The notes under the pieces were generated by a model, which worked only from the letters and a program-made list of their open reading frames with translations, searched no databases and was not told the DNA's origin. From contig VCJN01000280.1 of assembly GCA_006384855.1 (NCBI GenBank), positions 1 through 64,000 of the forward strand: 64,000 nt of DNA, written 5' to 3'. The stretch's first letter is position 1; the number at the start of each line of letters is the position of its first letter. Positions 346 to 16,700 of the stretch are shown piece after piece. This DNA is from Tetraselmis striata (lineage: Eukaryota; Chlorophyta; Chlorodendrophyceae; Chlorodendrales; Chlorodendraceae). The translations under genes and the position numbers were made by a program.

Positions 346-2180
346 GAGCTGTGGCAGCGCAAGGTGGTGTGCCCGGTGTGCGAGGTGCAGTGGGGCGACG
401 AGAGCCTCAACATGGTGGGCTGCGACGGGTGCGACTTTTGGGTGCACATGGGCTGCGACCGCGCGGCGGCGGCGCTGGCGGCGGCGGGCGGCGAGGAGGC
501 GGAGTACTTCTGCCCAAACTGCCGCGCGCGCACGGGGCGCGCGGAGCCGGAGCGCGAGGGCGGGCGGGGGCGGGGGCGCGGGCGGGGGCGGGGCCGGGGC
601 CGGGGCCGCGGGCGCTCCTCCACCGGCCGCCCCATGGGGCGACCGCCCAAGAGCCGCCCGCCCGCGGGCCGCTTCACCGGGCTGCCGCCGCCGGCTGGGC
701 GCCCCCTGCCACCAATGCAGGCCGCCCCCCCGGGTGCGCTCCCCCCGCCCCCCCCCACCCCCCCCCCCCCCAACCCTCCTTCCCTGTTGCCACCGCACAG
801 CCACCCCCCTGCCCGCTCAGCTGCTCTGCCCTAGCCCCCCCCCCCTTTCATCCAGGCCAACCCTCCTCCAGCGTGCTGCCCCCAGCGGTACTGGCCGACT
901 TGTGAGCCCGCCAAGCAGGCGCAGCATACAAACATGCCGGCATGTGTTGTCATGCACGCGGGCGCCGGTGCGGTATTAAGAACACTGCGAATCGGAACCT
1001 GCCCTACCCAAGAGAGTTCAAACTCGGGCAACATTAAAGCGGAACCATAGCGACCGTTCCTATGGCTTGCATGCGACCCTAATTCGAGCGCCTGTTTTCA
1101 CCGGTTCCTATCGGTGCGAGTGGCATCTTTACATGCATGCTCCCTAGCTCGGCCCATGGCGGCAGTGGCTGTGGCAGTGGCAGCACAGCTGGTGACTGGC
1201 CACCTCATTTGACCCCCCCCCAACCTGACCCCGCCCTTTCCTCCCATTGCGCGCTCGCCTGCAGGAGTGCCGCCGATGCCGATGGGGCAGCCCGTGAGGA
1301 AGCCCATGGGGCGCCCGCCGCTGAACAAGCGCCCCCCAGGGCGCCCCCCCAAGGTCCCGCGCCCTGGCATCGACCCGCCGGGGCCGCCGCCGCCCAGGCT
1401 GACGCCAGCGCCGGCGCTCGCGCTGCTGCAGGCGCCTGCCCCTGCGCCCGCCCCCGCCCCCGCGGCCCCGCCCGCCAAGCCCGTGACCGGCTTCCAGGTG
1501 TTCTACGGGCAGTTTCGCCGCGAGCAGCGGCGCGCCGGGTCACAGGCGCCGCGGGAGGAGATCAAGGCGGCCGCCAAGGCCGCGTTCCGCGCGCTGCCGG
1601 ACGAGGAGAAGCGGGTGCGGCGCGCCGCCTGGCTTGCGCTTGGGGGCAGGCGTCTGGGGCGTCTGGGTCCATTGGCTTCCTGGAGTGCCACGCCGACTCC
1701 CCCTCTATCATATAAACTACAACACAACGGTTTTTGCATGTACCGCGCCGTTTGGCGCGCGGCGTGTGATCCTTCCCGGGCGCCTTGTCGCCTCGATATC
1801 TATCCATGAGCATGGGCAGTATGCAATGATGGGCTCAACGGGGGAGGGGGAGGGGATTATGCAGTTATGGGACAAGAAGCTGGCCCTCCGACGGCCATTG
1901 CCAAGTGGACCGCCGCCCGCACTAGTCCCCCTAGTGCGGGATGTAGGGATGTAGTAGGGATGGCGGCGCCCCTGGCTGCTGAGGCAGATGGATGCTGCCG
2001 GGTGGGGGGGGGGGGGGGGGGGGGGGGGGGTTATTGACGCTGATGGCGCACTTTCAACCCGGCAGGTGTTCGTGAAGCTGGCGGAGAAGCAGCAGCGCCG
2101 CGCAGAGGAGGAGGCCGCCCGGGGGGTGGGCGCGGCTGGGTGCAGACCTCCCCGCTGCTGCTCGACCTGCAGGTGGAAAT

Positions 2181-2211
<31 letters not shown>

Positions 2212-5200
2212 ACCTCCCCCCCCCCTCCCCTCTCCCGCTCTCCTCCGATCAAACACACAAATGGTGTTTTGAGATCCCGTATGCTTCTGCCTTCTGCCAT
2301 GTTGCTACCTCCACCACCCTGCCGCCCGGCCCTCTCGCCCTCTTGCTCCGCCCTCGCCCTCTGTCTCCCTTTCCCTCTCGCCCCCTCTTCCTCCCCCTCT
2401 CCCTCCTTCTCCTCTCTCTCTCTCCCCCCTCTCTTTCTATACATGCGGACATGCATGTCCGTGAACGGTTGTCGGCGCAGCAATGAGAACACTGCGAATA
2501 AGAATCTGCCCTGGTTGAGGCTCAGACAAAATAAAGACGAAGCTATTGCGGGACTATGGCGAGTGTCATTATAGGTTGCATGCAAGCCCAAGTTGGGTTT
2601 TGTATGTGTTTTTATAGGTGCACCGGCACACGTATATGTACAGGTATCTGTGTCAGTATGTGCATATGTATATGTTTAAGTGTATGTATGTGTATAAGTA
2701 TCTGTATTTGTATATGTTTCTAAAAGTATGTTTCTGTGTATGTGTACTTGTCTCTTTTCATGTCATTTTGTATCCATGTGCATATCTCCTGCGCATGTTC
2801 TTATGCGTATCTTGAATTGCACTCGTGCATCGATGCCTTTAAGTTTGTATCGATCCCATTTGCCATTTATCACATCATTGCTGCCGGGGCATACTGTATA
2901 CGGCGCCATTCCACTGGGTTGGCGACCCCCTAACAATGACGGCGTTCCTCCGCATGGCAGCCTCCCATGCCCGGGCGGGTATGCTGGTCCGGCATGGCCG
3001 TCCATGGGCTCACCCACCACCCCACCCGCAGCTCAATGGCACGCTGACATCCCCGCCCGGCGGCCACCCGCAGTCGCAGGCGCAGGGCGGCACCAGCGAG
3101 CCGTCGCGCCACGCGCCCAAGCGCCCCCCGCCCGGGCCCGCAGAGCAGGGGCAGCCCAAACTGCCGCGCAGCATGCCGCTCTCGCTCCCGCTGCCGCTCC
3201 CCGAGGGCGGCGCGGCCCCCGCCGTCACCGTTGCGTGCAACGCCATCACCGGCCTCTTCTACTACTCCGGCGACCTCCGCGTGCAGTGCATCTCCCCCTG
3301 CTGCGGGTGCGCCCCCTTCCCCCTCCCCCCCCCCCCCCCCGCCAAACCACCAATGCCCATGTTCACATGTCAAACGTCCCCGTTCGAGCCCCGTACTCAC
3401 GTATCCATAGTATCAATATGATAATCTACATAGCCAGCCCGTTATGCTACACTGCGCCATCTAATTTGGTTTGCGCAGGGTTCGGGCAGTTTGCCTGCTC
3501 TGCGCCGGTGATTTTGCCATTCCGCGGAGTATTTGTGGTGGGGTGTATTTACGGGTGCCGGCGTTTAGGGTGATTATACACACGCTGCGAATAAAAGCCA
3601 GACATATGTCCCCGGCAGAGATTAAACGTGTACGGAATCAAAGCGGATGCATTTCCAATGTTGCTCTGGGTTCAACCGCGGCACCGTTATGTGAAACTTT
3701 TACCACAGTGTGTTGCCATCGCGCCGGCACCCGTACTTTTCCGGATGGGTGCAACTCTACCTTCTTCGCATGGGGTGAAACACAACCCAATGTGCAAAGC
3801 TTCGCACCCAAAGCTTGGCTGCAATGTCCGCAGCAAATTATGATCCCGGGCTCCCTGTCACCCTGTCTGCCCCTGTTGCTTGAGAGGCATGTCCGGAGTG
3901 CATCGGAAAAGGTAGGCAGGCGGGCAGCCCCCTCGCCATCTGACCTCCCCTCCCCCCCCCCCCCCCCCTCTCGCCCTCCGCGCCTCGCAGCAACGCGGGA
4001 CAGGAGCTGCTGACGCCGACGCAGTTTGAGGCGCACGCGGGCTCGGGCAACGCCAAGAAGTGGAAGGCCAGCCTGCGTGTGGTGCCCGGCGGCGCGCCCG
4101 ACGTGCCGGCCTACGGCCCCGCAATGGCCATCGGCCGCTGGCTAGAGCTGCACGGCGTGGAGACGCGCACGCTGGCGCGCGCCTCCAAGGCCAACCCGCA
4201 CCCAGTGAGGGACAAGCCGCCGAGGGAGCTCAAGCTGGACAAGGCGGCGGAGCGCGCGGCGGAGCGCGCGGCGGAAAAGGCGGCGGAGAAGGCGGCCAAG
4301 GCGGCGGCTGCGGCGGCGGCCATCGCGGCCTGGCAGCCGTGGAACGACGTAAAGCGCGGCAACTACGCCCCCATCCGGGCAGCTTGGGCAGGCGACCGGT
4401 GCGCCCCGCCACTGCCGATGCCCCCCCCCCCCCCCCCCCCCCTCGCCTTCCCTTTCCTCCATAGGTTTGATTACATTCAATCTGCGCCGGCAGCCGTACG
4501 TACCCCAATATATACCAGACAACACTCATCACACACCTGCGCACTCGCACACACAGTATGTGTCCGACGACCAGCCGAGGGGTGTACCATGGCTGCCGGC
4601 AGGCTTTCTCGCTGATGCCATCTACCTTCCTTAGCAGCCCTGCTCTCATGAGTCCCTCGCGTGCCCTCCTTACCAGCATGCTGTTTCTCAGTCGGCGACC
4701 GCGTGCGGCCTTTCCTTCCTGTTTTCGGGTGATGTTCGCTGGTGTCCCTCTGCCTCTCCCCCCCCCCCCCCCCCCCCCCTTCTAGCCCCCACCATTCGGC
4801 AAGGAAGGCAAACCCGGCATTGAGCTGAGTCAAAGGGCGCTGCAGCTTTTGCCTTGTGGTTATTTCGTGTGAGTCTGTGCGCCCATCACGCGAGCCCTGG
4901 CTCTGCCCTCGGCGATGAGCGGCACCCTGGATTGGGCGCTGACATGCTCCTCGGCCGGGGGTGCCCCCCACCCCCCCCTGCCAGGTGCGGCGCCTGCAAC
5001 AGCGACATGGACCACGAGGCGGACCAGCTCGTGAGCTGCGACATGTGCGGTGCGACGGTGCACCAGTCGTGCTACGGCATCGCGGAGCTGCCGTCGGTGG
5101 ACGATGTCTGGCTGTGCCGCGCGTGCGAGCAGCGCGAGGCGGAGGGGGAGGAGGGGCCCGCGCCGCAGTGCGTGGTTTGCCCCGTCGCGGGCGGGCCGCT

Positions 5201-5514
5201 CAAGCCGACGGCGCCGCTGGCGGAGGGCGGCTGGTGCCACGTGGCCTGCATGATGTGGAATCCCGTGCTGCGCGCGGCGGACGAGGCGGCGATGGAGCCG
5301 GTGGAGGGGGTGCGCGAGATCGAGAAGGCGCGCTGGGAGCTGCGCTGCTGCATCTGCAAGCAGCACATGGGGGCCAAGGTGCAGTGCAGGTGCGCACTGT
5401 GACCCCCCTTTCCCGTTGCCAAACCAGCCTGCCCAAACTCAAAACCGACAGCTATGTGGAGCTACCGGCATGGTGGACACGCGCTTCACACTGTCATCAT
5501 CTGCATATGTGTGC

Positions 5515-5550
<36 letters not shown>

Positions 5551-8500
5551 GCACATATGCACATATACATATATATGTGTATGTAATATGTATATAAAAT
5601 ATATATGCGTATGTATATATATGCGTATATATGCACATGTGTACCTGTGTACGCACGTATATTAATGCCCCTTTTTTGCGCAGCGCCGCCAAGTGCTACC
5701 AGGCGTTCCATCCCACATGCGGCCGCATGGCGGGGCTGCACATGGAGATGGTGGAGAACCCCTTCGACGCAAGCAGCGTGGAGTACATGACCTTCTGCCC
5801 GCGGCACTGCGAGGCGCAGCCCGAGGTGAGCGGCATCAAGCCGCTGCGCGAGGGGCAGGCCAGGCCGCACGAGGCCGCGGCGCGCGAGGCGGCGCGCCAC
5901 AAGCACACCGCGCCCACTCTGTGGAACGCGCAGCCCTACCTGCAGCCGCCCGCGCTCCTGGTGCCGGACCCGGCCGGCGGCTGCGCGCGCGCCACCATGG
6001 TGAGCCTGTCCCACTGGCGTGCTCTGATGGTTAGATCAACAGTGTAAGGGACAGCGCGTAATGTTGTCTATCCAAACATAGATCTATTGATACGTATGTG
6101 ATTATGACATAGGTATATTTATATTTGCGTGTATGTGACCAGCTGCGACTTATTAGGCAGTAAACCATATACACTAACTATCCGCAATATACACATATGA
6201 ATTTGAATTATCGCAGCATGCCCCCCCCCAACAAAGTGCCCACATTCCGTACATCATTTCCTTTGATTTGTGTGACACCGGCACCACACCACAGCTGCGA
6301 CGGTCGTTCATTTCCGTGCTGCAAGTTGTCCGGTTATGCCTTGTGTGAAGTACTCTAGCAGTGCCACTCTAGCTTATTCGTGGGGAACCTTCACAAGCAA
6401 TACCCCCCCCTAGTGAATAGTAAGTGCATGACAGGTGGATAGGGCGCACTAGTAGGCTGAAGGAGCCCCCCCCCCCCCCCCCCCCCCCCCCCTCCCCGCT
6501 TGCCATCCTGTTGCGCAGGTTGGCACGCCGGACTGGAAGCGTCAGAACCACGGGACTGGCGCGGGCTGGACCACCCTCAAGGGGTTCTGGATCCCGGAGA
6601 AGACGACCGAGGCGTTGGAGAGGCTGGCGGCGGCGCGGCGGCCCCCGCCACGAGCGGCAGCCGCAGCCCCCAGCGGCACCGCTGCGGCTGCGGCGGCGGC
6701 GGCGGCGGCGGCTGTGGCCGGGCCGCCGGAGCCGACGGAGCTGATGGCGCTGCCACCAGACACGCCGGAGTCGGTCCCCATCGTGTGCGCGGGGCGCCAC
6801 GGCATCTTCTTCACGCGCAATCAGAACGTGGAATATAACGGCGAGGTGGTGACGTGCTCGCGCTTCGAGGTGCTGTGCGGCAGGGGCGACGCCAAGAAGT
6901 GGAAGACGAGCTTTTGGATCGTGGACGAGGAGGGCAACACCGCCGGCACGATGCAGGACTGGCTGGCGCCGCGCGGGCTGGACCGCAAGACGCTTCTTGC
7001 GTACGGTGCCAACCAGGCAGCGTACGAGGCGTGGGTGGCGTACAGCCAGGGTGGCGGGGAGTCCAAGGAGGAGGAGGCGAAGGTGGTCGAGGAGGGGCAG
7101 GGGGAGGGAGAGGAGGAGGAGGAGCAAGACAGGGCGGAGGCAAAGGTGGGGGAGGCAGAGGTAGAGGAGGACCTCGAGGAGGCGGAGACGGAGGACACCG
7201 AGGTGGCGGTCAAGGAGGCGGCGGAGGTGGAGATGAGGGGGGAGGGCGCGGCGGCGACGGAGCCGAAGGCAGAGGCGGCGGCGGGGGATTTGAAGGAGGT
7301 GCCGAATGTACCGGAGACGGCGGCGGAGGTGATGGAGGTGGATTTGGTGCCGCCCGTGCTGATGAGCCCAGATGAGGGGGTTGTGGTCAAAGAGGAGGGG
7401 CGGGGGTCGGTGGAGGGCGAGCGGCTGCCTGCGGTGCTGCCGGATCCGGCGGCGGAAGAGGCGTTGATGGAGGAGGCAGTGGAGGTGCCGCGGGACACGG
7501 AGCTGGCGGCAGAGGAGGAAATGCTGGTGCCAAAAGCGGAGCAGGCCGCCGAGGTGGAGGGTGTGCTGGGCATCCGGGAGGGCGAGGAGCCGCAGGATGT
7601 GCCGGCGGAGGCGGGACCCAGCGCCGGCAGGGGCTGCCTCCTGGACGTGCAGACGCTCAGTGCGTCGCTGCACAGCGAGCCGGCGGACGTTGTCGGCGCC
7701 TTTATGCGCCTCTATTGGCCTGACGACGATGAGTGGTATGACGGAGAGGTACGAGTACCAGGGCCGGATGAGCGATTTATTAGGAGCAGGCGTGTGGTTC
7801 CGAAACCAAAATTCCGATCAATAATAACCAGTAATAACCCGGATGCTGATGAGTCCAGCTGTTACATAACACGCCACAAAATTCATCGCCCCGGCGGAAA
7901 TTCAACGTTAGCCAACTGATCGCGTCGCTCGCGTCGCGCTATAGTGTCGTCTGGGTGCTGCCGTTGCTCTGTTGCTGCTGTCAGAACAGGCTCTGCCACT
8001 GCCGAGAGAGCGGACGCATCGCGCGGCCGCCTGCCAGACTCTCGCGATCTCGTCCCGAGGGGTGGTTTTATTCCAACCGGCGTCGAAAATAATTACGTGC
8101 ATTTGTCTCGCTGTGACGCCTCGCGCAGGTTCGCGACTTTGAGCCCGCGACTGGCCAGCACTGTGTGTTCTACCCGCTGGACGGCGCCTCGGAGTGGATC
8201 GACCTTCGGCTGGAGGCCCTGGGTGGGCGCGTGCAATGGGTCCCCGGCTGGGACTCTTCGCACTGGCCACCCCCGCCCCCTCCGCCGCCGGGGCAGAGTC
8301 GTTACGTGCCCGATGCGGCCCCGCCCGAGCCAGTGCCGCAAGCAGTGGCGGAGCTATCGGGCTGCGTGGTGCCGGAGGAGGGGAGCCAGCTGCCGATCTC
8401 TCCCGGTGGGTTGGGGCCCCCGCCAGGCGTCGCGGCTGGCCGGCCGGAGGAGGCTGTCGGCTGGCGTATCGGCGTCTGGTGGCCGCTCGACGAGTGCTTT

Positions 8501-11210
8501 TACTACGGCGTTATCGAAGCGTACGACCAGTCGCGGCGACAGTGGCGGATCTTCTACGACGACGGCGAGCGGCACTGGCTGGAGCTCGTGGGCGAGACGC
8601 TCGAGTGGGTAACGGCGGACGGCGAGGCGCCCTCGGCGGCAGCGCGCGAAAAGTTTTCCGCCGAGAATGCTGCGCCGCCGGCAGCAGGTGCGCCAGTATT
8701 GCCCGTTCGTGCCACGCTTGCTCTATCGTCGAAACCGGTGCTGATTATCCGTCCGAACAATCCTAGTATTGATTACGATACATGTATATAAGTATAACAG
8801 CAGACGGGGGGGTTGTGATTTCATGCAGCATCCCCATGTTTTTTACAAAATTTCTTCCAATAATACTGAGTGTTATGTTACGACTTGGGATGATAATTAT
8901 GTGTGATGATAATTAGCCGCTGCGCGAGCCTGCGTTTTATGTTCGCCGCTCTCGCTGACATGAGTGTGGACGCCATTCAGGGGGCGCATCCGATGCAGAG
9001 GGAGAGCGTGCTGGCAGCGTGGAGGTGATGTGCGGCGCGCTGCGCGGCGTCTTCGACCGCATGACCCAGATGGTGGCCATGGCGGGCGGGTCGACCGTGA
9101 CCCCGACCGAGTTCGAAAAGCTGGCCGGCAAGGCGGCCAGCAAGAAATGGAAGAGCAGTATCCGACTCGGCGACGACTCGCAATGCATCGGCGACTGGCT
9201 GGCGGGGATGCCTCCAGGGCGTGGACATGGTGCCGGCGGCGGCGGCGGCGTAGCCGGGATGCGTCGCCGCGCGATGGTGGCTGCGGCGGCTGCGAGGGCG
9301 GCCTCGGTCGGCGGCGCTGGTCGGCAGGCCAGCAGTAATCCTGGTGCGCCCCCCCCCCCCCCCCCCCCCCCCCCCCCCATTTCCGTTCTGGGATTCGCAA
9401 CTCTCCCCACACGTACAGAAAAGAAATAACACTCGTCGGAACGCGCGCATTGTGGTCGATATGTGAAGTATGAGCAGATGCAAATTGTCGACATTCCGAG
9501 AGGCATTGGCTTGGCTCCACCGACATACATGCGATCACACACCCCCCCCCCCCCCCCCCCCCACACACACGTACAAGCTGCCCCGCCGTGCGCTCCGCAG
9601 TACAATGTTGATGAATGTCGTAATACGTCTTCAGGGGTTTGGTTGCGAATTATAGTCAAATTACCTCGGCGGCTGTTCGATGTTGGCGCCTTGTTGTTCG
9701 GCAATCGAGCAGACACGCGCCTGCTAGAACGGTACCGTTCCTCGTTCGGAGACGATATAGTCGCTACCACGTGTCGGATTTATATTCAAGTACGGTACCC
9801 GTTCGATCGCAACGGTACACGAGCATTTTGGTGATGGTGGTGCCCTCGTAACCGACACGGGCGTCCTTTTGAGGGTATTCTCGCTTTTGCGGCGGGAAGG
9901 GGCATTCGGATCAGACTGCATCCTCATCGACTACTCCCCCTGTGCTCGTAGGCGGCAACGGGCGGCGCCACCACCGCGAGGGCTGCATGTGCGTACTGTG
10001 CAAGCAGATGCGGCGCAAATACGGCGACAGCGGCCCGCCCTCGACGTCGGTGGGCCCGCGGCTGGCTGACAATCGCGTGCGCGAGGGGAAAACCGCTTTC
10101 GTACGCGCGACGCCCATGCTGGTTGGCTGCGGGCCGGTGCGCCAACCGCCCACGGCGCTCCCGCACTCGCGCGCCTGGACCCCCGAGGAGTGGGCAGCTG
10201 AGGCCAAGGGCGGCCCCTCGTGCGGCGGCAGCGACGACGAGGCCGACGACGCGGATATGCCCCGGGTCGGGGACGTCGACGGCGGGCCAGCGGCGCCCTC
10301 TGTCGGCAACGGCCCGCTGGAGGGCGAAGCCTCGGGGGCGTCGTCAGAACCCCCCGCGGGCCCCACGACGGCTACGACCTCGATTGTCGGCAAGCGTAGC
10401 GGCATGAGCCAGGCGGAGCGGCTGCGGATGAGCCAGGTGAGCCCATCATCGTGCTCGGCCGGCTCCCTGGCGGGATTTAGGGTTTGGGGTTTTAGGGTTT
10501 AAATGCCCTGCGTCTGACAGGACAACAGCGAATTACCGTTGTTCTTCGACAAGGACAGCGTCGTCGCGATTGGTCGAGTCGGAAGACCGGGTAGTCGTTC
10601 GATTGCGGATTGTTGTTGGATGGGCCGAATGTTTCGCGAGATCCGAAAACGGGCCCAGTGACGGGTGACAGGGAATGCGTTGATTTAGCCGACTGCGGTG
10701 CTCGGCAGCACGTCGGGAAAAAGTCGCGGAGGGTGCTGCCGCCTGAGGCGATTCGGCCGACTGCCCCGCAGGTGATGGAACGCTCGGCGATCACGTTCGG
10801 CAAGAGCGGCATCCACGGATGGGGGCTATTTGCGCGGGCGGCCCTCCCGGCGGGGGCCATCGTGATCGAGTATCGCGGCGAGGCGATGCGCGCGGGCATG
10901 GCGGAGCGCCGCGAGCGCGCCTACAACGCGAACCGGCACCGACTGCTATCTGTTCACCGTGAACGAGGACCGCGTGATCGACGCCACGATGGCGGGCGCC
11001 ATCGGCCGCTTCACCAACCATTCGTGCTCGCCCTCCATGTACAGCCGCATCCTGGAGGTCGACAAGGTGCCGCGGCTGGTGTTCATGACGCGCAGCGCGG
11101 TGCAGGCAGGCCAGGAGCTCACGTACGACTACCGCTTCAAGGAGGAGGCGGGCGAGAGCAAGATGCACTGTCGATGCGGCGCGCCCAACTGCCGCGGCAG
11201 CCTCAACTAG
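346..11210 (+). CDS. Trithorax-like (ATX/TRX) histone-lysine methyltransferase, 5' end not seen
   Basis: A chromatin protein expected to methylate histone H3 lysine 4 in the nucleus. Exons inferred from splice sites with matching phase: 346-733, 1265-1614, 2066-about 2125 (plus perhaps a short piece to 2171), 3032-3306, 3991-4398, 4985-5389, 5684-5999, 6519-7748, 8129-8687, 8981-9343, 9952-10436, 10521-about 10590, and a last exon to 11210. Modules in order: PHD finger (about 367-525); AT-hook GRGR repeats and GRPMGRPP motifs; HMG-box (about 1485 into exon 3); SAND-like FEAHAG...KKWK (about 3992-4150); PHD plus extended PHD (4986-5820); second SAND-type (6780-7000); Glu-rich stretch; Tudor-like folds (7700-8600); third SAND-type (9085-9210); Cys-rich knuckle (9960-10020); SET with FTNHSC and YDYRF; post-SET CRCGAPNC. 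The 3' exons are firm. The gene start lies in or left of the first 345 bases. One frame shift interrupts the SET region near 10935. No PWWP or FYR domain is seen. Confidence 0.85.
961..1118 (+). mobile_element. MITE-like element, copy A
   Basis: Begins with GCGCCGGTGC, carries GAACACTGCGAAT and AACCTGCCCT, and ends near a reverse-oriented CCGGTTCCTATCGGTGCG. It lies in the first trithorax intron of the window and has no reading frame. Confidence 0.45.
2471..2629 (+). mobile_element. MITE-like element, copy B
   Basis: Begins GTCGGCGCAG, carries GAGAACACTGCGAATAA and GGTTGCATGCAAGCCCA, and ends TATAGGTGCACCGGCAC, the reverse complement of the family's start. It is intronic and non-coding. Confidence 0.5.
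2599..2760 (+). repeat. Degenerate TGTATA-type simple repeat
   Basis: Loose hexamer-like repeats of TGTATA/TGTGTA/AGTATC run through this trithorax intron. Low-complexity DNA with no gene. Confidence 0.6.
3550..3735. mobile_element. MITE-like element, best-preserved copy (H)
   Basis: About 185 bp with perfect terminal inverted repeats CGGGTGCCGGCG, each flanked by TA, inside a trithorax intron. It shares the internal motif CTGCGAATAA with other copies in this window. No coding capacity. The TA flanks are typical of Tc1/mariner-type insertion, but family assignment is inference. Confidence 0.55.
5516..5640 (+). repeat. TA/ATGTAT microsatellite
   Basis: A perfect TA run followed by degenerate TATATGCG and ACATAT units fills the intron that splits the extended PHD finger. 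Confidence 0.7.
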
Positions 11211-11296: not shown

Positions 11297-13741
11297 TCCT
11301 ACATGTTGGCGGGGATGACGCGATAAGTCACTATACCCTGGGCTATTATTCTGCCGAGACGGGACTGATGACGCTAGCACGAATGGAGCGAACATTGTAT
11401 GCATGCACCTTGTATTGTGCACCTGCTGTTCAGCATATGATAAATGCAATGCAATAGCGTTGCAGGGTAATTGCCAGTCTCTACTCAGTCAAGGGTGTAG
11501 GCACTGCATGTGCGCACGAGTGGATGACGTGTCGTCTGATTTTACCGAGTGTGTCTACTGTCTACTGTGCATTGATGTACATCTGTGTGTGCAAACTGCC
11601 CAGATGGTGATGTACTCGGCGCCTTATTACAGTGCTAGTGATATAGTAATCAGAGCCAGTATTGTAGTAGTACTGGTAGGGCTAGAGCCAGGCACCCAGT
11701 TGGGGTCGGGTGAGGCCGATGGATCGAAGGACGTGTGTTATTAACTACCACTGGTACTGATATGGAGCGAAATTCTGTTTCTTATTGGCCAGCAGCCGGG
11801 GATTCATGATACGTTACTAATGGGCGAAATTGTATATCATCACAAATTGTTGCTCGGGGCTTCGCATGTATGTATCGATTTTTATTCAGTAAGGGATCGA
11901 AACTAGATGTATATAGCAACGCGGGCAGCGAATTATGACAGGGTGTTTGACTTAAGCAATAAAAAGACAGTGAATAAAAATGCAAATGCGACGGACGGTA
12001 GTTACACCGCCAGCATGTCGCCCGCCTTTTGCGTTTACCGTGGTTAGTGATTCTAAGCCTAGGCTTGTTTAGGGTTTTAGGGTTTAGGGTTTAAACCCTA
12101 AAAACCCTAAAACCCTAAAAACCCTATAAGCCTAGGCTTGTAGCTTGCCAAAAAAAGAATTGCAAGTGCGATAACCGGACGAAACGGCTGCCTCCTTGGC
12201 GCAGGGGGCTTGCATACACTGAAACGCAAGGCTCCATGGGAAACTTCAAACACGATTATTTGTGGCTAGATGCAAGTGAAAAATATGCGATACACATTTT
12301 TGCTTAATACCATATCATGTACACGACTGTGAATTTACGCGCGGCGCTCATCATCATCTCATCTCGCGGTACTGGTAGAAGTGACAAATTAAGCGATAGT
12401 TGTACTCGCACCACATGACTGGATCTTTTTGACCTGGGGGCGCTAGGCGCTGCACGATTTGCATAAATGATTTGGAGTGACTATTGACGGCTAGCCCCAG
12501 CACCATGTGCCCTGGACGATACCCTAGCAACTGACCGCATGGATGCGCCCACTGGGTTATCGGAGCTGCATGCCACCGCAACTGCGCCAGCTGAACCCCG
12601 GCCCTATCGAGCGTGCATGCTGGAATGCGGATAGAGCTTTTCGGGGCGGGTTTGTCTCACTGCAGTGCATGATTAGGCCGTAACTGTAGTATTGGCCGCT
12701 GTTCTGCGACAAGTGCTCGCCCGCATCCACGGCGTCGAGTGACCTGCGGAGCGCGCCTTTATGCATATGGACCGTGATAATACGCGACAAGTTGGGTTTG
12801 GGCGTGGTGCCGCACATGTCAGTAGTCCGAGATATTCCCTATGACAGCCACGACAAGGGGGCCGGGCCTATCGTGGATGTTATATGGAGGGATACGACCC
12901 CATGCTGATGCGCGGAACGGCGCGGAAACCGTATAATCGTATAGCGGAAACGCTATATTGTACAGCCCTCGTATACGACTGTACGCTTGTACGCACCGGG
13001 GCATGATAAGGATGGCCAATGGTCTGTAGAAAGAAAATGTAACAATGGCATGCGAGGACCACCACCATAAGTGGGTTCCCACAAACAGGGCATCATGTCC
13101 ACGAGCGTATCGTAGATGGGTCGGTGCAGATGTGATCGTATCGCAGGTCACATATACAACATATGCGGGATGCATGTCCGTGGGCGGTCCCCTAATCGAA
13201 AACCTCATATCTGGCTTCTGCCGCATATGCAGGGAGTATCGTCTCGCAAATTTGCCATTACTTCGAAAGTGTATTACTAGTAGCTGTCCACACGCCAACT
13301 CCACATGCAGCCTATTCAGGATATGGCGCATTGTATCTAGCCACTATTTCGGTACTCAACCAACATTTCGGGTTAACCTGTCTACACTCGTACTCCACAT
13401 GCTACACAGAATCTTCACTCAAAAAACGTGCACACTTTAGTGGAGGAATGTACTGCGGAGACCCCACTGCGGCGTATTCTTTTGTCTACGTGAGCGCGCA
13501 GCGTGGGCAAGAGTGGGAGCACCACAGCGTGGAACACTTGATATCATGCACGAGGAGGAGCTCTGTCGATTGGCCTTCGAGCGGCGACATGCAACGGACC
13601 CGGCTGACCTCTGCGGGCTCATGCAGTTGGGCCGCGAGACAGCCAGCCCGCGGTGCTGCACAACAACAACGGGTAGCGAAGTTCAATTTTCAGCTCCGAG
13701 CGTGGCCGACCCCCAGGTGTTGAGTCCCCCCGTCGGCTAGC
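11297..13741. other. Intergenic, no gene supported
   Basis: Moderate GC with only short unconserved frames. The only notable items are the inverted telomere-like palindrome at 12054-12141 and a TGGGTTATCGGAG motif near 12552 that recurs inverted near 19890. A 65-codon frame at 13546-13740 has an acidic start but no recognisable domain. The window lies between the 3' ends of two converging genes. Confidence 0.5.
12054..12141. repeat. Head-to-head interstitial telomere-like repeats in a palindrome
   Basis: Units of TTTAGGG/TTTTAGGG read toward a central GGTTTAAACC and continue as CCCTAAA/CCCTAAAA on the other side. Both flanks carry AAGCCTAGGCTT. The whole forms a near-perfect 88-base hairpin-capable palindrome. 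Confidence 0.85.
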
Positions 13742-16700
13742 TCAGAAGTCCAGCTCCCCGAGGAAGATTTCCTTGTCGGAGCCGGCCGAGGCGATGATGG
13801 GCTCCTTGGGGTGGAACACGGCCTCGTTCACGCTGCCGGTGTGCCCCGGCAGGCGGTACTCCAGGCGGCCCGAGTCCACGTCCCAGATGCACACCATCTT
13901 GTCGCCCGATCCCGCAGTCACCTGGCGAGTCGGACGGCGGGGAGGGGGGGTGAGCGGCCCAGCCGAACCAAGAAGGTCACGGGTCCTTCGCCCCGGCGCG
14001 GCGCGACTTGGCAACGCCTCTGCAGGTTTGCGGAACCTCGACTCCCTGGGATGCCGGGAGTGGGCACCGTTCGAGGGAGAGGGAGGAGGGGGCGACATGT
14101 GGGAAGGCGGGGGGGGGGGGGGGGGGGGGGGGGTTGCGCGCCTTCTTGCCGTCGGGGCTCCAGTCGCACTTGAGCAAATTCTTCTCAAAGGTGTGCTTGT
14201 GGCCGGTCAGCACCTGCATGCGGGAGGGGGGAGGGGGGGGGTTGAGGGCGGGTGCGGTGTCCCTACTATATCGGGGCACGGAGGATCCATGACTGCCTAT
14301 GGAAGGGCGCGCTTTAGGGTTTGTGATGGGCCCACAGATGGAGGCGTCGAAAGGCATACACGCATTGTTGACACCAGTGTTGCTGTCACTGCTGTACACC
14401 AGACAATGTAGCTAGGGTATGCGTATTAGTACTTTAGAACACATCTGAGTGGTACGAGCACCGCGCTACGCACGCGCCGCGGGCACCGCATCGCGCCAGC
14501 CATATAGGCGTTCCGCGCTCCGGGCCTGCTCACTTCTCTGTTAACCAGACACTCTCCCGGCTATGGGCTTTTGCCTCCCAACCCCGACGTGCAACATGGA
14601 CCAGCACGTTGGTTGCGGGGAGGTTGCGCATGACAGGCATGGCGGACATTCCCCAAAACCTCTGATAGCTTTTACGGCTTCGGAGTTCCGGAAGAGGTTC
14701 CCCGGGGGGGGGGGCACCTTGGTGCAGCGCTCCCCCGGCGCATAGGGCCGCATGTCCCACACCCGCAGCGTGTTGTCCATCGAATTGGACAGCAGGTGCG
14801 TGCCGTCCGGGCTGAGCCGCATGCCCGTCACCGTGTCGCTGTGCCCCTGCAGGCTCATCACCACCTCCTCCTTGCGCAGGTCCCACACCTTGGGGCGGGA
14901 GCGACAGGGCGCGGGGGGGACTCAACGCGAGCCGCGCTGGGGGCCGGGGCAGAGGGAAGGGGCGCCAGGGCGCACAGCGGGGCTGCACTCCTCTGGGTAG
15001 GGAAGCACCCCTCCACATCGCGGGATGCGGGGCTTGCCTGACTCTCAAGCAGGACACGGTTGGCACTGGGAGGGGCTTTATTAGTGACTTGCGTTTGCCA
15101 TGTATACGTTGCTCAACATGTCACCATGGCCGCCCACAAGGCGTATCCCTGGGAGTTTTAGGGTTTCAGGTTTTCAGGGTTTAAAGACAGGGTATAAAGA
15201 TAGGCCTAACTTCCGCCTTAGGTGCCGGTGACCTTCTCAACAAGAGCGGGTGGGGTGGAGTGCCTTGATGACGTTCTCGAGGCCGGCGGAGTAGATCTGG
15301 TCGCCGGCGTCGCTGAAGGCGACGCTCAGCACCTGGTAGCTCTCGTTGAAGGTGCGCACGGAGCGCTTCACGCGCAGGTCCCACAGCTGCGTGGCCGCCA
15401 CAGGGGGGGCATTCAGCAATGGTGGCACAGCCCCCCCACCTCCCCCCACCTCCCCTCTCGGCATGCGCACACAAGCGGCAAGCCCTTCGACTGCCCCCTT
15501 GGGCATGCGTGCGCTAGGCATGGGTCTCCCTGTGATGGGGGTTGGGGGTTGGGGGTGGGGGGGGGGGGGGGGGGGGGGGGGGGTCCTAGTGCTTTGGCTG
15601 CTTAAAGCATGACAACGGCATGATGGGTTGAACACCACGTCCGGTTCGCGACTGTTGAGGGATGCCGACGGTGGGGCTGCCCTCCGCACATGGCAGGTGT
15701 GACGTGGCCCGCGACCCTGCCCCAATGCTCGCCCTGCCCACCTGCGCCCCGTGATGTTACTATACAACATCGACCATTGAGCAGGTGCATCCTATGGCCG
15801 GCACATCTGACTGACGGTTCGACTCCCCTTCCTCTCCCCACACACCCACACATACACCCTCTCCTCTCTCCCGATGGGTGCCCACGCCCACCTTGGCGGT
15901 GCCGTCGTCCGAGCCGGAGACCAGCAGCGGCGGGCCGCGCTTGAGGGGGCAGCACGAGTTGACAAAGTTCTCATGCTCCGACATCTTCTTCACCTGGTAA
16001 AAGGGGGGGGGGGCGGACAGCGGCAGAGGCATGCGAGTCGGTCACGCCCGCCCCATCGCCCGCATCCGCCCTCGCACAGCTCCCGCGCCTGGATGCCCCA
16101 CCGGCGCCGCGCGGATGCCCCACCTGCAGCCCCGTCTGCGCATCCCACGCGCGCACAGACTTGTCCGGCGACGCCGTCAGCAGGCGCTCCCCGTCGGGCG
16201 TCCAGTGCAGCTCCAGGATGGCGTTCTTGTGCCCCTTGAGCACCATGAAGTTCTCGCACTCGCCGCGCACGTTCCACAGGTACACGAACTTGTCGAACGC
16301 GGCGCTCGCGATGACGTCCCCCGCGGGGTTGAACTTGAGGCTGAGCACCGCGCCGTCGTGGCCGCTCAGCTGCATGATGGGCGCGTCCAGGCTGGAGGTG
16401 CGCTTGGGGCCCTGCGGTGATGAGGGGGGGGGAGCGCGGCCGGTGAGCCCGGGAAGGTCCGCCGGAAGGATGGTGCGTTTTACTGGCACTCTATCATTTT
16501 TTAATAAGGAAAATATAGATTAATTTTCTGTCCGGCAGAGGCAGGGATTGCAGCCCGGCGGGGCGATCTGGTGGCCCGTGCGGCAGGCAGGGCGGCAGAT
16601 GGCGGCAGGAAGCCACCGCCCTCCTCACCTGGGGCACCGCGGGCCCCGGCAGCGCGAGCTCCGTGCGCGCCCGCTTGACGGCCACCATCGCGCCGCCGCC

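Follow-up and report, generated by a model that had tools for sequence, protein, structure and literature searches.

A gene at positions 346-11210 (+ strand) of the window, that is, of the whole analysed stretch of 64,000 bases that opens contig C216 (123,809 bases) in the 224-Mb assembly of Tetraselmis striata, was found to combine PHD, HMG box, SAND, Tudor and SET domains, and is read as a Trithorax gene of the ATX3/4/5 type from an alga of the green lineage, most likely a chromatin writer, with a probability of about 0.73. Confidence was lowered to this value because the ATX3/4/5 placement rests on domain content and because published papers disagree on the SAND domain in plants. The domains follow one another in the order PHD1, GRG repeat with AT-hook-like cores, HMG box, SAND 1, PHD2, extended PHD, SAND 2, Tudor 1, Tudor 2, SAND 3, a C-x-C-x-x-C motif and SET. 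Read in this way, the gene would give the ATX3/4/5 branch a member with many additional modules.

Domain content

The final exon (10772-11210) encodes a C-terminal SET and post-SET of H3K4 class, carries a frame break and closes with a stop codon after the post-SET motif. Pfam matched the SET domain as two fragments, one at 0.0032 (18.3 bits, where the cut-off is 22.4) and the other at 1.8e-12, which fit adjoining profile positions, 1-33 and 38-104. The top solved relatives of the SET half were found to be KMT2A/MLL1 chains, followed by chains named H3 lysine-4 specific (60 of the 110 matches being listed), and the C-terminal SET half aligned with KMT2A, its closest solved match, over residues 2-89 of 89 (6.2e-24), gapless to the last residue. 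The sequence of the domain is thus related to the H3K4 enzymes, and the Trithorax-type methyltransferase proposed in an earlier, sequence-only reading of this DNA was supported; the SET/post-SET end of that reading was recovered as well, but split by the frame break.

Upstream of SET, a PHD followed by an extended PHD was found, as in the ATX3/4/5 type. PHD1 (~370-522; Pfam match 1e-8) lies in the first exon of the model (346-733), which also holds the GRG repeat and one AT-hook-like core (631-651), and from which the gene runs on upstream off the contig. Exon 4985-5389 encodes PHD2 and the beginning of the extended PHD, the remainder of which lies in exon 5684-5999, with Pfam values of 2.5e-14 for the PHD family (best stretch PHD2) and 4.7e-27 for the extended PHD (zf-HC5HC2H_2); the PDB relatives of this pair are JADE1/BRPF1. 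The HMG box (PF00505) begins at ~1477 in exon 1265-1614 and ends in exon 2066-2125, with a value of 1.1e-7 on the spliced piece and scores of 26.7 bits in a long piece and 32.6 bits alone, above the cut-off of 25.4. The PHD, extended PHD and HMG box named in the sequence-only reading were therefore confirmed, and the further families that reached their cut-offs, zf-HC5HC2H, PHD_2 and SAND_ULT1 (25 bits vs 25, for the SAND-1 piece alone), overlap the same domains. Its AT-hooks fared less evenly, since three GRPP[KRL] AT-hook-like cores (the one in the first exon and two at ~1303-1353, ahead of the HMG box) were observed against 0.08 expected on segment shuffling, but the Pfam scan of the gene pieces listed no AT-hook. 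The cores are called AT-hook-like by their motif.

Family placement and published relatives

No FYRN match lies on contig C216, which agrees with the ATX3/4/5 type and not with ATX1/2; the four FYRN matches listed for the assembly are all on other contigs. Neither FYRN nor FYRC was matched by Pfam in pieces covering nearly the whole gene model, the missing 5' part lying outside these pieces and FYRC not being searched genome-wide. No plant ATX chain appeared in the PDB lists for the SET half (60 of 110 listed) or for PHD2-extended PHD.

The published record, cited here and below from excerpts of each paper, offers close relatives. SAND is present in the gene, as PMC7947857 states for ATX3; there, land-plant ULT and ATX3 with its paralogs are said to contain SAND (citing Nedelcu 2019), and no SAND-domain protein is reported in animal or yeast Trithorax-group (TrxG) complexes. 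In land plants, SAND is likewise associated with ATX and ULT according to PMC10137558. The Ostreococcus tauri protein XP_003078017, an ATX3-type protein described in PMC3457860, resembles the present gene in carrying HMG and SAND together with PHD, extended PHD and SET in a unicellular green alga, but it also has PWWP and zf-CW, neither of which was found here, where the 5' end is missing, and the excerpts speak of 'the SAND', naming no set of three SANDs and no Tudor pair. Arabidopsis ATX3, ATX4 and ATX5 share with this gene the PHD, extended PHD and SET without FYRN/FYRC (PMC3457860) and, per PMC7947857, the SAND; plant ATX3/ATX4/ATX5 differ in lacking HMG and, by PMC3457860, SAND also, with extra SANDs and a Tudor pair unmentioned in the excerpts. 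The sources conflict on SAND in plants, but together they contradict the view that a protein of this kind with SAND or HMG lacks precedent. The earlier statement that plant ATX proteins are without such modules is contradicted for SAND by two reviews, PMC7947857 and PMC10137558, and HMG with SAND is on record for the Ostreococcus protein. Neither a SET protein with three SANDs nor an ATX3-type protein with two Tudors was mentioned in the literature excerpts, which is weak evidence of absence, as figures and Nedelcu 2019 were outside the search. The gene is best described as a known family's member with an enlarged domain set and a presumed activity.

A second Trithorax-like gene was observed on contig C66 (8699-14548, - strand), with PHD_2 (2.3e-13), extended PHD and SET (7.1e-18). 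Its SET resembles, and may belong to, the ATX1/2-MLL kind. If so, the alga holds both ATX types, which were first seen together in moss according to PMC3457860. FYRN was matched at 8.3e-20 on C1332 (7106-7838, - strand) and on C1583, contigs for which no SET match is listed. Beside this match lies a stretch that we take to be FYRC-like. A link in which the C1332 gene would complete the ATX1-like gene of C66 was considered and dropped, as the listed frames give no support.

SAND modules

SAND module 1 begins at ~3215 in exon 3032-3306 and runs to ~4174 in exon 3991-4398, which holds its KKWK and an Ala/Lys/Glu-rich stretch (six-frame match at 4001-4081). Module 2 (~6768-6995) lies in exon 6519-7748, ahead of an acidic linker, and module 3 (~9013-9225) in exon 8981-9343, for which, by reading of the sequence, an acceptor at 8999 suits the phase equally. 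Modules 1 and 3 passed the SAND (PF01342) cut-off of 22 with 32.0 and 32.8 bits (1e-7 and 5.5e-8), respectively, module 3 being the top-scoring SAND among the matches listed for the assembly, whereas module 2 failed in every context, with 20.9 bits as a 100-aa piece, 16.9 as an entire exon and 19.1 when searched in six frames. Yet a profile built from five other SANDs of the genome aligned to module 2 along 75 columns (hhalign probability 98.3%, E 2.5e-14), and the score of module 2 with module 1 or with module 3 was matched by 0 of 1000 shuffles. The same (0 of 1000) was found for all 15 of the 15 pairs among six SANDs, a comparison that left out the weak C532 match and allele copies. Homology of module 2 to the other modules is supported by these alignments, so that, of the three SAND-type modules claimed earlier, two stood by Pfam and the third by profile alignment.

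A six-frame Pfam search of the assembly (E up to 1) gave at least nine SAND matches, three of the nine listed being in this gene, while the remaining six include two contig pairs, C2891/C2750 and C951/C1334, which have near-identical translations and look like alleles. The profile of six SANDs found the SAND structures of SP140, SP100, GMEB1 and 1ufn at 3.2e-4 or better; three more chains, at E 0.62-0.99, look like chance. The KKWK motif shared by the three modules had been taken as a sign of internal duplication, an idea that was not sustained: KKWK was also found in SAND exons on C1064 and on the pair C2891/C2750, and module 1 was found to be nearest, among the SANDs compared, to the C1064 SAND, with an alignment score of 154 compared with 75 for module 2 and 97 for module 3. 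KKWK is therefore better regarded as a local form of a SAND family motif than as a mark of duplication, and simple internal triplication was not accepted as the origin of the three SANDs, given the closeness of module 1 to the C1064 domain.

Two SAND loci elsewhere in the assembly were observed beside other domains. On C1064 (198724-201620, - strand), the SAND exon (3.2e-7) lies near an extended-PHD exon (7.1e-12), with no SET match among those listed on the contig, and on C951 (47789-50923, - strand), a SAND frame lies ~1.4 kb upstream of a GATA zinc finger frame (1e-8), with which it may form one gene. According to PMC10137558, SAND genes are confined to green plants/algae and animals, and green algae have a rich set of SAND architectures. 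The presence of SAND genes, together with the AAACCCTAA repeats and Tudors of plant type, fits a green alga as the source.

Tudor pair

Tudor 1 begins at ~7677 in exon 6519-7748 and is completed in exon 8129-8687, which also holds Tudor 2 (~8447-8623); the two are 31% identical over 52 positions (1e-6). The top PDB match of both was chain 7de9_A (8.1e-13 for Tudor 2 and 2.1e-4 for Tudor 1), which is the Tudor domain of Arabidopsis RDM15 in complex with a peptide carrying H3K4me1 (PMC8184781). With this domain, 49 positions of Tudor 2 align without a gap, and the equivalents of the RDM15 cage residues W616, Y623 and Y641, as well as the acidic D643, are retained in both Tudors (residue numbers being assigned by spacing, for which a single position fits). 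The Tudor-like folds of the earlier reading were thus strengthened, since a reader of H3K4me1 with a solved structure matches them well. Judging from the cage, methyl-lysine reading by the pair is likely, and by likeness to RDM15 its target may be H3K4me1. RDM15 is a factor of the DNA-methylation pathway and not a methyltransferase. The pair could serve as a direct test case for an H3K4 methyltransferase that would recognise the mark it makes.

Gene model

Splice and phase reading gave 12 exons and 11 introns, all GT-AG and of 293-906 bases. The phase is consistent over exons 1-11, up to the SET exon, with zero in-frame stops, so that the single phase-consistent gene described before holds for these exons and breaks down within the SET exon. 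Between module 3 and SET, exon 9952-10436, placed by splice signals and phase and without a Pfam match, carries the C-x-C-x-x-C motif (~9984-10001) and a linker. Exon 1 opens at a splice acceptor, and base 1 of the window is base 1 of the contig; the 5' end of the gene therefore lies beyond the contig. A single mRNA would probably run across all 12 exons, as far as splice signals tell. Queried with the SAND-1 exon and with the proteins of PHD2-extended PHD and of the HMG box, the assembly yielded no second copy of the gene, nor did DNA queries 3991-4400 and 1-1650 (40 of 185 candidates scored for the latter) give more than short partial matches in place of a second haplotype copy with the missing 5' end. 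As far as searched, the gene occurs once in the assembly.

Several side observations concern the introns. Positions 950-1089 in the first intron are part of a short dispersed repeat, on which 34 of the 44 listed matches of query 1-1650 (the window itself included) land with 71-90% identity. Runs of almost pure C or G, 30-50 bases long, were found in introns at 2000-2030, 2181-2230, 6466-6497 and 9349-9378, and other parts of the window hold comparable runs. The last intron (10472-10500) and the region downstream of the gene (12093-12134) contain short arrays of the telomere-like unit TTTAGGG/AAACCCTAA.

Alternative explanations

A number of observations weigh against the reading of the gene as an ATX3/4/5-type writer. 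The reading frame changes inside the SET exon between ~10931 and 10938. A GT-AG intron was rejected as the cause, as none of 10 frame-restoring pairs was acceptable, eight removing Y-R-G-E, one (76 bases) removing G-W-G-L-F-A and one being 16 bases in size. The KMT2A sequence NHSCEPNC reads NHSCSPSM here, with PSM in place of PNC and one cysteine lost. In MLL1, the cysteine of PNC helps to bind the post-SET zinc. Owing to the frame break and to PSM for PNC, catalytic activity is not to be taken for granted. The choice of ATX3/4/5 over another Trithorax branch was decided on domain content and not on a tree, so that the assignment is a probable one, and PWWP, part of the ATX3 cassette, is not visible with the 5' end cut off (none of the eight listed PWWP matches is on C216 or linkable to the gene). 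The 2012 account in PMC3457860 has HMG, SAND and zf-CW absent from the plant ATX3/4/5 versions, which for SAND speaks against the placement. Regarding the Tudors, the Pfam Tudor families remained under their cut-offs for Tudor 2 and gave no match for Tudor 1, and two specificity residues differ, Tudor 2 having E and H at the equivalents of RDM15 D645 and E647, and Tudor 1 having A at the former but keeping E at the latter, so that mono-methyl specificity may not hold.

The same frame break, together with the missing cysteine and the failure to find an intact second copy with the SAND-1, PHD2-extended PHD and HMG queries, would fit a decaying or catalytically dead copy, in which the reader and DNA-binding modules may work while SET is broken. 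Such a copy is considered unlikely, as exons 1-11 are open and phase consistent, and the second SET half is gapless against KMT2A to its end, with the two SET pieces adjoining in the profile; the latter two features suggest that one indel in the assembly could have caused the break. Even less probable is the wrong joining of two neighbouring genes, for instance a PHD-HMG-SAND-PHD-extended PHD reader followed by a SET protein. Seven of the 11 junctions (1/2, 3/4, 5/6, 7/8, 9/10, 10/11 and 11/12) rest on phase and splice signals only, but the remaining four lie inside modules (HMG, SAND 1, extended PHD and Tudor 1), no in-frame stop interrupts exons 1-11, and SAND with PHD and SET is the combination published for ATX3 (PMC7947857).

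An origin of the three SANDs from one tandem duplication within the gene also appears improbable. It would account for the KKWK common to all three and for the weak pairing of modules 2 and 3 (bootstrap 57), but in the same tree, of six short sequences, module 1 groups with the C1064 SAND with 89% support, in keeping with the alignment scores, and KKWK is shared with the C1064 and C2891 domains.

Proposed function

In a working model of this gene, drawn by analogy, the SAND modules, the HMG box and the AT-hook-like segments would anchor DNA, PHD1 and PHD2-extended PHD would hold the histone H3 tail, and the two Tudors would dock on methylated lysine, by likeness H3K4me1. The SET domain would methylate H3K4, for which a COMPASS-like complex is the probable setting, given the reported interaction of ATX3 and ATX4 with WDR5a (PMC9824250), and the reader modules could steer the enzyme to chromatin already bearing the mark. 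A SAND domain here may also serve as a protein contact, by analogy with rice OsULT1, the SAND of which was reported to bind GAGAG and also to interact with a SET domain (PMC7947857). The gene suggests that an algal Trithorax may carry in one chain a SAND function that land plants also supply via the separate partner ULT1. A further step, proposed tentatively and on balance doubtful, is that one polypeptide deposits H3K4 methylation and recognises the intermediate it has made via tandem RDM15-type Tudors while held on DNA by three SANDs, the HMG box and AT-hook-like cores, as a self-reinforcing, DNA-targeted Trithorax; if true, such a protein would be without description in the land-plant or animal literature searched.

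Neighbouring gene

Downstream, a frame on the - strand at 13742-14206 of the window was found to match the WD40 repeat (4.1e-8), and the next gene therefore probably converges on the Trithorax-like gene. This frame is reminiscent of the U5 snRNP 40K protein.

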